NCBI GenBank assembly: GCA_947258735.1
Contig: CAMYJJ010000140.1
Span: 1 to 7,843 of the forward strand
Reading direction: 5' to 3'
Source: Thermodesulfovibrionia bacterium
GTDB lineage: Bacteria; Nitrospirota; Thermodesulfovibrionia; UBA6902
DNA: 7,843 bases
Translations under genes and position numbers: made by a program
The notes under the pieces: model-generated
Seen by the model: the letters and a program-made list of their open reading frames with translations, nothing else
Databases searched by the model: none
Told to the model about the DNA's origin: nothing
Part shown: in pieces, positions 355 to 5,399 of the stretch
Layout: every line of letters begins with the position of its first letter
How positions within the stretch are numbered: position 1 is the stretch's first letter

Positions 355-1470
355 ATGAAGATACGATTTATCATTATGGTGTCTGTAGCGATTCTGGTTT
401 TGATCATAATTCTGAATATGACTCATTATGCTGATTACCAGACGTCACTCCTGCCGGGTGTCTTTATTCAGCAGAAACAGGGTGTCCTTACAGCAAACAA
501 CTGGTCTGTCCCGCTGGTAGACGACTGGAATAATGACGGCAAGAAAGACCTTCTGATAGGAAACAGAACCTATGAGAACAAGGGTGCCGGCAAAGGGTAC
601 ATAAGTTTTTATCAAAATAGTGGCACAGACAGCCGTCCCCTATTTGATAATCTCAATTATGTAAAGACATGTACTGATATCTGCTCTGATCTAACTGTTG
701 CGCCTGATGGATGACAGGGCTCCTACCCTTCAGTCGTTGACTGGAACAATGATGGCCATAATGATCTCATTGTGGGAGACGGAGGCAGCAGTGTCTACTT
801 ATTTATAAACAGTGCGGAAGATGATATACCGGTTTTTAATCGTGGCACCATTTTGATAACTGAACATACCCTTGAAGGTTCTGAAAGAATCACCCCTGTA
901 CCCTATGACTGGAACAATGACGGTCACAAAGATATAATGACCGGCGGAATGGATGGCAGAATCAAGGTGTATATCAATAAAGGTACTGACCTGGCTCCGC
1001 AGTTTGAAGATTTCTTTTTTCTGCAGTTGGGAAGCAATATATTTACTATCGGGTCCAAGTCAGCACCCAGAATGCATGATTTAAACAAAGACGGGTTAAT
1101 GGATATTCTCGTTGGAGAAGTCATGGGGTATGTCTATTTTCTTAAGAATACCGGAACTGCCGATAACCCTGTGTATACCAGATCTGATAAACTGTTTTTA
1201 AAAAATGGTGATGCACTGAAATATCCGGGAAGCGGTCCCCGGTCACGTCTGGATGTTACAGACTGGAACAATGATGGTCTTGAAGATATTGTTGTTGGGG
1301 GCGCAGATGGAAAGGTCATGCTGTTCCTGTCATCACAGGATACATCTGTATCATTCTCAACCCTCCTGAACAGGACAAGAGTCAGGTCAATGGAGTCATT
1401 TTATAAAATAAAACATCACACAAAAACGCTGCTCAAGACAATCAGAGATATGGTCAAAAAAAAGGCTTGA
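355..1470 (+). CDS. Membrane-anchored VCBS/FG-GAP beta-propeller protein, interrupted by one in-frame TGA
   Basis: Read through the TGA at 712-714, this is one 371-residue frame. As conventionally called it gives two pieces: about 355-714 and a remainder with its first ATG at 772. ATG 355 is preferred over GTG 322 because it puts K2/R4 directly before a membrane helix (residues 5-21) that acts as signal anchor. Five calcium-binding VCBS/FG-GAP loops of the form DWNNDGxxD begin at residues 57, 129, 185, 242 (DLNKDG) and 303, spaced 56-72 residues. This is typical of an extracytoplasmic beta-propeller. The tail (about 330-371) is basic. The 57 bases between the TGA and the next ATG encode the conserved start of repeat 2 (VVDWNNDG) in the same frame, so the halves belong together. 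The only cysteines, C106 and C110, sit just before the TGA (residue 120). Options are selenocysteine, readthrough, recent nonsense mutation or sequencing error. The ribosome binding site is weak. Confidence 0.7.
712..745 (+). promoter_or_regulatory. In-frame TGA plus candidate bacterial SECIS hairpin
   Basis: The TGA lies at 712-714. Bases 729-735 pair with 739-745 to give a 7-bp stem (one G-U pair) closed by a GUU loop at 736-738. The loop begins with G and starts 21 nt after the TGA. As I recall the bSECIS rules (apical loop of 3-14 nt, G in its first two positions, 16-37 nt from UGA), this fits. The equivalent coding stretches of the other DWNNDG repeats do not form this same tight stem, so it is not forced by the protein motif. 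A second small hairpin (716-719 with 726-729) lies closer to the TGA. No biochemical or comparative support is available here. Confidence 0.35.
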
Positions 1471-3092: not shown

Positions 3093-3174
3093 CCGTAGGG
3101 GCGGGACTTCCCCGTCCAGGGCAATGCGATTCAGAAACCATACATACCAGGGCGGGGAGACCGCGCCCCTACGG
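3093..3174. repeat. REP-like inverted pair of GTAG-headed hairpins
   Basis: Two facing copies start with the same CCGTAGGGGCG end (3093-3103 forward, 3164-3174 reverse). Over 28 nt the inverted arms differ at seven positions. Each copy folds alone. In the left one, GGGCGGG (3099-3105) pairs with CCCGTCC (3111-3117) over a 5-nt loop. In the right one, 3150-3157 pairs with 3161-3168 with one mismatch and a 3-nt loop. Each hairpin is directly preceded by GTAG on its own strand. GTAG/GGAG next to a hairpin is the mark of REP elements acted on by RAYT transposases. The pair lies just after the Slp stop codon and could also stop or protect its transcript. Confidence 0.8.
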
Positions 3175-3192
3175 CACATATAAGAACAGATC

Positions 3193-3387
3193 GTGGGATA
3201 TGATAACTATCAGACAACCAAACACATAAACCAGACAGGAAATCAATTTGGTATGCCTGTCTGGCAACGTAATTATTATGAACATATTATTCGCAATGAA
3301 GATGAATGGTATCGTATTCGTGAATATGTCCTGAACAATCCACAGCAATGGGATGATGACGATAACAATCCACAGAATATAACATGA
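3193..3387 (+). pseudogene. C-terminal remnant of a REP-associated tyrosine transposase (RAYT, Y1/IS200-like)
   Basis: The 64-codon frame (nominal GTG start, stop TGA 3385-3387) encodes VWQRNYYEHIIRNEDEWYRI followed by REYVLNNPQQW. This is the hallmark C-terminal block of REP-associated Y1 transposases, usually written as xWQRxYYxHxIRNExE...IxxYIxxNPxxW. The preceding residues YQTTKHIN match the segment linking it to the catalytic core. Full-length proteins have roughly 150-230 residues with an HUH motif near the N-terminus; that whole part is absent, and an in-frame TAA at 3181-3183 closes the frame upstream. There is no ribosome binding site. It lies between REP-like hairpins (3093-3174 and 3416-3440), as expected for an old RAYT unit. 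It is almost certainly non-functional as a transposase. Confidence 0.85.
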
Positions 3388-4301: not shown

Positions 4302-5237
4302 ATGACAAAAAAAGGATGGGCCATCACGCTGATAATGATACCATTGATTTCTTTTGCTCTCACCACCGGGTGTCATAAGGCAAAAGAGACAGTAACAGAG
4401 GCAACTGATAAGGCCGCTGAAACTGCTGGTGCCATTACAGAAAAAACCAACGCAGCTAAAGAAAAGGCAATAGAAGTCACTGAAGATGTCACGGACAAGG
4501 CAGCTGATATTGCTGGTGCCATTACTGAAAAAGCCAACGCAGCTAAAGAAAAGGCAAAAGAAATCACTGAAGATATCACGGACAAGGCAGCTGATACTGC
4601 TGGAGCAATCAAAGATAAGACAACCTCGGCTGCATCAGAACTGACTGACAAAGCTGTTGGTGTCGTTGGGGTCTCTAAAGAAGCTGCAGGGAACGCTCAA
4701 GAAACAGCGAAGGAAAACATAAAGATGGCCGTCCCTTCCGGTAATGATTATGTGGGTGTAAAAAAATGCAAGGCATGCCATTTCAAGCAGTATAAATCAT
4801 GGGACCAGACAAAGATGGCTTCAAGCTTTGAAAACCTGAAGCCGGGAGTAAATGGGGAAGCCAAGAAGAAAGCCGGCCTTGATCCGGGGAAAGATTATAC
4901 GCGGGATGCTTCCTGTGTTCGATGTCATACGACAGGATACGGGAAAGGCGGATTTGTAAGCCTGGAACAAACCCCGGACCTCATTAATGTGCAATGTGAA
5001 AGCTGCCACGGGCCCGGGAGTGAGTACAGGGTGATCATGAAAGAAAATAAGGAGTTTAAACTTGCAGAGGTAATACAGGCCGGCCTGCTCCTCCCTTCAG
5101 AGAAGAGCAACAATTGCCTGGAATGCCATGGAAGCGACAGCCCGTTTAATGAAAACCTGGATCCAAAGTATGCCTTTAATATTAAAGAACGTCTGAAAAA
5201 TACTCACGACCATTTTCCATTAAAGTATAAACACTGA
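4302..5237 (+). CDS. Exported tetraheme cytochrome c554-like protein with N-terminal LEA-like repeat domain
   Basis: ATG 4302 is chosen because AAGGAG (4287-4292) sits 9 nt upstream; the alternative TTG at 4284 would place that site inside the gene. The 311-residue product has a basic N-terminus and a hydrophobic segment (7-20). TTGC follows, so C24 is a possible lipid anchor, although Thr at -3 is unusual. Residues 27-140 are rich in Ala, Lys, Glu and Thr and built of 29-residue repeats (DKAAxxAGAITEKxNAAKEK), like LEA or apolipoprotein helices. Residues 150-311 hold four CxxCH heme sites: CKACH (156-160), CVRCH (205-209), CESCH (232-236) and CLECH (272-276). The contexts YVGVKKCKACH, CVRCHTTGYGKGGF and GVQCESCHGPG-like NVQCESCHGPGSEY match periplasmic cytochrome c554-family proteins. 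The role is electron transfer in the periplasm; partner unknown. A terminator lies at 5412-5439. Confidence 0.9.
   Translation: MTKKGWAITLIMIPLISFALTTGCHKAKETVTEATDKAAETAGAITEKTNAAKEKAIEVTEDVTDKAADIAGAITEKANAAKEKAKEITEDITDKAADTAGAIKDKTTSAASELTDKAVGVVGVSKEAAGNAQETAKENIKMAVPSGNDYVGVKKCKACHFKQYKSWDQTKMASSFENLKPGVNGEAKKKAGLDPGKDYTRDASCVRCHTTGYGKGGFVSLEQTPDLINVQCESCHGPGSEYRVIMKENKEFKLAEVIQAGLLLPSEKSNNCLECHGSDSPFNENLDPKYAFNIKERLKNTHDHFPLKYKH
4407..4667 (+). repeat. 87-bp in-frame tandem repeat inside the cytochrome gene
   Basis: The copies start at 4407, 4494 and 4581, exactly 87 bp (29 codons) apart. Copies 1 and 2 differ at 9 of 87 positions by hand count. Copy 3 matches copy 2 closely for its first 24 or so bases and then diverges, with a shortened echo of the motif from about residue 116. 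The high DNA identity points to recent duplication or gene conversion and suggests that copy number may vary between strains. Confidence 0.85.
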
Positions 5238-5270: not shown

Positions 5271-5399
5271 TTCCTGTTGCGGAAAGCAACATCTCTAATA
5301 ACTGTCATTCTGAACTTGTTTCAGAATCTTATGTTTGCAACGAGTTATGAGACCCTGAAATAAATTCAGGGTGACAAATAACAGCTTCCGCAACAGGAA
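5271..5399. repeat. Nested palindromic element (MITE-like) downstream of the cytochrome gene
   Basis: A perfect 14-bp terminal inverted repeat, TTCCTGTTGCGGAA at 5271-5284 and its complement at 5386-5399, encloses about 100 bp. Two further GC pairs (5286-5287 with 5384-5385) extend it after a one-base bulge. Inside is a second inverted pair of hairpins at 5303-5376. The element separates the cytochrome stop codon (5237) from the terminator at 5412. No coding capacity and no clear target-site duplication were seen. Confidence 0.75.
5303..5376. repeat. Twin inverted hairpins of the TGTCA...CTGAA interspersed type
   Basis: The 28-nt ends (5303-5330 and 5349-5376) form an imperfect inverted repeat starting TGTCA. 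Each end also folds alone into a perfect 8-bp stem with a 5-nt loop. In the first, ATTCTGAA (5307-5314) pairs with TTCAGAAT (5320-5327). In the second, ACCCTGAA (5352-5359) pairs with TTCAGGGT (5365-5372). The differences between the two stems are paired changes (TT/AA against CC/GG). I recall similar palindromes scattered in many bacterial genomes; that is memory, not a search. Confidence 0.8.

Follow-up and report, generated by a model that had tools for sequence, protein, structure and literature searches.

The gene of interest lies on the forward strand of the window, a stretch of 7,843 nucleotides, and is predicted to encode an exported FG-GAP/VCBS β-propeller protein containing selenocysteine (Sec, U). 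It extends from the ATG at 355 to position 1470, with the GTG at 322 as a possible alternative upstream start, and its frame is open save for one TGA at 712–714, a putative Sec codon at residue 120 of the 371-residue read-through product that has a TGA at the aligned site in relatives. Membership in the FG-GAP/VCBS propeller class is evident from Pfam repeats over cut-off (FG-GAP_3, PF13517, 79.4 bits in the read-through product against 26.9) together with propeller structure matches, the nearest solved folds found with Foldseek being the propellers of KICSTOR/ITFG2, the BBSome, integrin alpha and CRTAC1 (TM-scores by query length of 0.33–0.41); a sequence-profile match to integrin alpha-4 was also obtained (E 1.8e-8), and five DxNxDG-type motifs were counted in the read-through sequence. 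The AlphaFold2 model (alignment of 54 sequences; mean pLDDT 93, pTM 0.89) is laid out as an N-terminal helix, a strand region and a long C-terminal helix beyond the propeller (residues 334–370; 1354..1464). The N-terminal helix (residues 2–25; 358..429) is hydrophobic in sequence and is read as a signal or membrane anchor that would take the protein out of the cytoplasm. C106 and C110, whose codons lie within 670..684 (CxxxC), may act as partners of Sec120; that they are the sole cysteines of the read-through product was claimed, along with the intact frame, in the preliminary description, and both claims were borne out. Two cysteines ahead of the TGA are present in all ten Nitrospirota TGA loci among the best 80 (L009 with other spacing), unlike L108, which is without them. 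Positions 729..745, behind the TGA, form a bSECIS-like hairpin with a 7-bp stem (729–735 paired with 739–745) and the loop GUU (736–738).

Elsewhere in the window, in the ORF at 4302–5234 (+), a cytochrome c554 domain (83.8 bits) follows a long stretch of helical repeats, which gives an apolipoprotein match under the cut-off; the start of this ORF appears lipoprotein-like by eye. A short ORF at 3193–3387 (+) resembles the C-terminal part of the REP-associated tyrosine transposase (NF047646; 29.7 bits against a cut-off of 80) and is probably a transposase remnant, adjoined at 3093–3174 by a REP-like, GC-rich inverted repeat whose 28-nt arms are 79% complementary. The intergenic region at 5271–5399 holds a MITE-like inverted repeat whose perfect 14-nt arms lie 101 nt apart. 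Rfam gave six matches across the window, none over the gathering score. As to conserved neighbours, three ORFs of the window other than the gene itself are each matched by a similar ORF in the flank of a single relative, and none is matched in several, while some Nitrospirota copies have neighbours in common with one another. A counterpart of the window's OmpA-family protein is present in the genome G272, with 61% identity in the C-terminal and 41% in the N-terminal half. Among viral contigs, 75 stretches fit a pattern and none encodes a relative; in plasmid records there was no near match.

A protein search with Cys placed at the site in the query returned 647 relatives, 120 of which were listed. 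Ninety-two of the 120 do not cross the site, and the alignments begin at query residue 128 in 56 cases and at 122 in 13; gene callers had apparently halted there, and the DNA of the relatives, with its TGA, shows why. The public gene models, downstream pieces mostly from query residue 128 or 122 among the 120 listed, would also suit two proteins, one a short N-terminal fragment with the anchor, terminated by the TGA, and the other a separately started propeller piece, an idea we find scarcely credible given that the downstream piece begins inside the propeller without an export signal, that full-length Cys relatives are single proteins with a hydrophobic start, and that the Val codon GTG at query residue 128 is simply a convenient start for a gene caller. 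The 28 site-crossing proteins among the 120 listed have Cys in 21 instances and Trp (P0003), Arg (P0018), Gly, Asn, His, Leu or a gap in one instance each. Cys opposite the TGA, for which a homologue search had been proposed in the preliminary description, is thus what the search found; Trp, Arg and Gly, which the same text had named as speaking against Sec, do occur, in one homologue each, against Cys in the 21.

At the DNA level, the best 80 loci from genome contigs were compared with X at the query site, a selection and not a census. A stop within aligned positions 117–122 is present in 38 of these loci (the TGA of L066 at aligned 122 being counted as a site stop) and is TGA every time, with TAA or TAG in none of the 80; Cys occupies the site in 30 loci, and 12 have neither stop nor Cys, one of them a fragment. 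Stops elsewhere in the matched stretches of the 80 loci number three, one each of TGA, TAA and TAG. Within the class around the nearest relative (G001), 230 genomes were searched and 23 proved to contain the gene (E 1e-20 or better): a TGA is present in 21 of the 22 genomes with a site-covering copy, and the 23rd copy stops short of the site. A sense codon in other strains, another sign against Sec named beforehand, was accordingly met once, in G279, set against the 21 genomes with TGA. The copy concerned (L105) has GGA (Gly) in place of TGA although its genome has both selA and selB, and is likely to reflect a recent loss of Sec. In total, 52 distinct TGA sites were collected, the window included. 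TGA loci occur in eight named phylum-level groups as defined by record title or NCBI rank, namely Nitrospirota, Planctomycetota, Lentisphaerota, Calditrichota, Caldifarciminota (WOR-3), Stahliibacteriota, Fermentibacterota and Eiseniibacteriota. Purifying selection acts on the coding sequence before and after the TGA: dN/dS between the window and L001 is 0.30 before the TGA (121 codons) and 0.17 after it (251 codons), and four other pairs gave 0.13–0.28 before and 0.08–0.22 after, with a fifth, L060/L074, saturated downstream.

These comparisons bear directly on the proposal that a recent nonsense mutation or a miscalled base produced the TGA in a broken gene, which the preliminary description had considered an equally simple explanation. 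The window itself is represented by one sequence only, and the group is not free of decay or error, as seen in the copy from G272 (L091, 59% identical), which has a second in-frame TGA at the 14th codon after the first and a weakened stem, and which may be a decaying gene or contain a wrong base. However, 52 distinct sequences, the window included, share this TGA in alignment, TAA and TAG are lacking there among the best 80 loci, and both sides show purifying selection; for the family as a whole the conserved TGA already refutes the proposal, parity between the two explanations is not upheld, and we regard mutation or error as extremely improbable.

The family places its putative Sec at two positions. 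U takes the place of the conserved Cys (G-C-x-G) in Nitrospirota and the Eisenbacteria group, whereas in most other TGA loci it stands one residue ahead of that Cys (U-C-x-G). Forms with the UC pair come from WOR-3, Stahlbacteria, Fermentibacteria, Calditrichota, Lentisphaerota and two Phycisphaerae, and the residue following U at the 52 sites is Cys in 23, Gln in 13, Leu in 9, Met in 6 and Gly in 1. A quick tree of 82 rows, inferred with the trait columns removed and having 28 weak branches among its 79 inner ones, requires 4 changes for C, 5 for U and 3 for UC. Four U rows are found inside one starred clade together with 27 C rows, which amounts to Sec/Cys exchange as expected of a selenoprotein. 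The nearest relatives of the window by propeller gene in this tree reside in G001 and G272, and the window probably belongs to the class of these genomes.

The hairpin behind the TGA was described beforehand as a 7-bp stem with a GUU loop starting 21 nt after the TGA; stem and loop are as described, but it is the loop that begins at 21 nt, the stem beginning at 14 nt. The published bSECIS rules (PMC13188914) give a loop of 3–9 nt, a stem of 4–16 bp, a G in the first two loop bases, a spacing of 16–37 nt and a minimum free energy of −7.5 kcal/mol or lower. The window has a loop of 3 nt, a stem of 7 bp, G as first loop base and a spacing of 21 nt, in keeping with the earlier assignment to the loose bSECIS geometry, while the isolated hairpin reaches −5.7 kcal/mol against the published −7.5 (−11.5 for the folded 48 nt that follow the UGA). 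That limit is a heuristic one, missed by the isolated hairpin at 37 of the 52 family TGA sites; the 15 sites at or below it compare with none of the 30 Cys sites. Taken alone, the window hairpin is no better than chance against dinucleotide shuffles of 706–770 (z 0.14) and gives p 0.11 against synonymous-codon shuffles; the case for TGA and hairpin together exceeding chance is made by the relatives and not by the window hairpin. Across 39 TGA sites, the window included, the mean positioned stem score is 15.9, compared with 8.6 at 30 Cys sites (Mann–Whitney p 3e-9, uncorrected for kinship), the synonymous-shuffle means being 8.3 and 8.0, respectively. A p of 0.05 or lower against synonymous shuffles was reached by 18 of the 39 TGA sites and 3 of the 30 Cys sites; by lineage, it was reached by 17 of 24 UC or U-G (L067) sites, 1 of 11 Nitrospirota sites (window included) and none of the four Eisenbacteria-group U genes, in which p ranges from 0.07 to 0.61. 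The hairpin signal beyond the needs of the protein thus comes mostly from the Sec-Cys lineages, and the Nitrospirota hairpin is conserved yet rarely significant alone. Two loci, L024 and L040, lack a stable hairpin that fits the rules (−1.2 and +1.1 kcal/mol). In L062 the loop reads GGUCU, resembling that of E. coli fdhF. The folding energy of the whole 48 nt parts U from C weakly (p 0.007, uncorrected for kinship), and the positioned hairpin does so better.

Compensatory changes of the stem are seen across 18 sequences sharing one stem register (17 UC forms and L067), a set that omits two loci identical over the 30 bases as well as L062, L064, L068 and L073, which use another register. Three of the eight stem pairs changed on both sides, one being A-U in 5 sequences, G-C in 5 and unpaired in 8, the second A-U in 13, G-C in 4 and G-U in 1, and the third A-U in 12, G-C in 3 and unpaired in 3. 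Double-change cells number 12 versus 4.6 on shuffling, with none of 500 shuffles as high, and both the proportion of paired cells (86%; at most 40% in slid controls) and the covariation score lie above all 500 shuffles; the other two of the five covariation measures fall within the shuffles (double-change pairs, 3 versus 2.4; further pair types, 5 versus 6.4). In the Nitrospirota stem, the Val before VDW is encoded by GTC in 22 of 22 genes, versus 139 of 536 other Val codons; Nitrospirota copies outside that count have GTC (L019) and GTA (L091). The stem Asp codon is GAC in 21 of 22 genes versus 69 of 86 at other DW motifs, which is not significant (p 0.11). The L105 copy, its TGA lost, retains the stem codons.

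Genes for Sec decoding were compared between 37 genomes with the TGA and 39 others, the latter having Cys, neither stop nor Cys or, in G039, a fragment short of the site. Curated cut-offs were exceeded by selB in 29 of 37 versus 16 of 39 and by selA in 33 versus 15, and tRNA-Sec exceeded its gathering score in 32 versus 20. Because weaker matches may be other tRNAs, a stricter line of 60 bits was also applied, above which 31 and 15 genomes remain. At least one of selA, selB and tRNA-Sec (above 60 bits) is present in 36 of 37 TGA genomes and 19 of 39 others (Fisher p 1e-6, uncorrected for kinship); controlled for the tree, co-occurrence of TGA and machinery is represented by only 4 independent pairs on starred branches and is not significant. 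Within the class of the nearest relative, the test is uninformative since selA is over cut-off in 201 of the 230 genomes. Both selA and selB were detected in the nearest relatives (G001, G272, G039), with no tRNA-Sec over cut-off found in G001 and G039, and G002 carries selA, selB and tRNA-Sec on one contig, within 3.6 kb. Among 12 further class genomes with the gene, selB is over cut-off in 11, the remaining one (G278) having neither selA nor selB over cut-off. None of the three genes was found in G033 (the genome of L073), and G005 and G009 have selA alone; these genomes without full machinery, G278 among them, may be incomplete.

A UGA read as Trp or another standard residue, through near-cognate decoding or a changed code, would likewise yield a full-length protein. 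It finds some accommodation in the homologues with Trp and Arg at the site (P0003 and P0018), the Trp perhaps owing to a gene caller set to table 4, and in the few TGA genomes that lack detectable Sec machinery. Yet the usual residue in relatives is Cys and not Trp, TGA also serves as a terminator in the family, whose normal gene ends use TGA, TAA and TAG alike (the window gene itself ends with TGA), and hairpin and Sec machinery go with the TGA. We consider such read-through most unlikely, although not quite as remote as a mutation or sequencing error. The apparent stop codon is very probably read as Sec, to judge from sequence comparison. Of the refuting signs named in the preliminary description, those open to a check mostly fail. 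The selenoprotein interpretation offered there is supported by the conserved TGA, the Cys homologues, the hairpin and the machinery in relatives, and with high confidence we understand the gene as encoding a membrane-anchored extracytoplasmic propeller, with the UGA at 712–714 decoded as Sec by SelA, SelB and tRNA-Sec with the aid of the hairpin at 729–745, and as a member of a new selenoprotein family spread over several phyla. Decoding would follow the standard bacterial route, in which SelB carrying Sec-tRNA would bind the hairpin and insert Sec at the UGA.

In its repeat, the window protein is like the FG-GAP/VCBS proteins at large (PF13517, PF01839; integrin alpha, ITFG2, BBS7, CRTAC1); it differs from integrin alpha, ITFG2, BBS7 and CRTAC1 in having five repeats by motif count and in TM-scores of 0.33–0.41. 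To our knowledge, none of these proteins, nor any other FG-GAP/VCBS protein, carries Sec. Shared with the bacterial selenoproteins decoded by SelA, SelB and tRNA-Sec with a bSECIS are the in-frame UGA, the Cys homologues, the Sec genes in related genomes and a downstream hairpin whose loop opens with G at 21 nt from the UGA. The propeller fold sets the family apart from the 119 families and subfamilies of bacterial selenoproteins inventoried in Table 1 of a May 2026 review (PMC13188914), in which no FG-GAP/VCBS or other propeller family is entered; the majority of characterised selenoproteins have a thioredoxin-like fold, according to the same review. A full-text literature search, outside which most subscription papers and supplements lie, gave no paper on an FG-GAP/VCBS selenoprotein by title or abstract; a groundwater metagenome study cited in the review (Deng et al. 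2026, in PMC13188914) may contain this family. No NCBIfam model over cut-off covers the propeller in the eight family members tested. Absent from the literature and from Table 1 as far as searched, the family is regarded as new within the selenoproteins that use UGA for Sec.

Regarding function, Sec would either replace the conserved Cys, as at residue 120 in Nitrospirota and the Eisenbacteria group, or precede it to form a vicinal Sec-Cys pair. In the window protein, C106 and C110 precede U by 14 and 10 residues and may be able to pair with Sec120 in a selenenylsulfide, and in the UC forms the adjacent Cys may be the partner, making a vicinal selenenylsulfide possible. A vicinal Sec-Cys motif, GCUG, is present in animal thioredoxin reductase. 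CU proteins are also contained in the review table, as SaoL, SaoC and HgcA (PMC13188914). The UC forms, at 23 of the 52 sites, resemble these proteins and thioredoxin reductase in having Sec and Cys adjacent, and differ from them in the order, U then C, and in being placed on a propeller. The role that appears most likely is that of an extracytoplasmic site for redox chemistry or soft-metal binding, partnered by C106/C110 in Nitrospirota or by the adjacent Cys in the UC forms; for the role of Sec itself, the likelihood we assign is about one half to redox chemistry and about one third to soft-metal binding. The location is suggested by export cues that vary with the member: the hydrophobic N-terminal helix modelled for the window protein, a lipobox-like start recognised by eye in L023, a T9SS tail that passes the cut-off in L068 and falls just short of it in L060, and, for the Cys homologue P0073, an above-cut-off match to a PEP-CTERM model. 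By these cues, the members examined seem destined for locations beyond the cytoplasm, via differing pathways. The wider picture, of a surface selenoprotein family built on an integrin-like propeller, distributed over at least eight phyla, exported by varied routes, with its Sec site shifted by one residue (U120 versus U119-C120) and forming an extracytoplasmic redox or soft-metal centre, is one that we favour moderately.

If the interpretation is correct, a widespread family with a fold outside the 119 listed ones would be added to the prokaryotic selenoproteome, and Sec would be placed on an exported repeat protein. Many members are truncated at the UGA in public gene models, and the records often hold the downstream part only. 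The natural U, UC and C versions of the protein would provide material for testing the function of Sec outside the cytoplasm.
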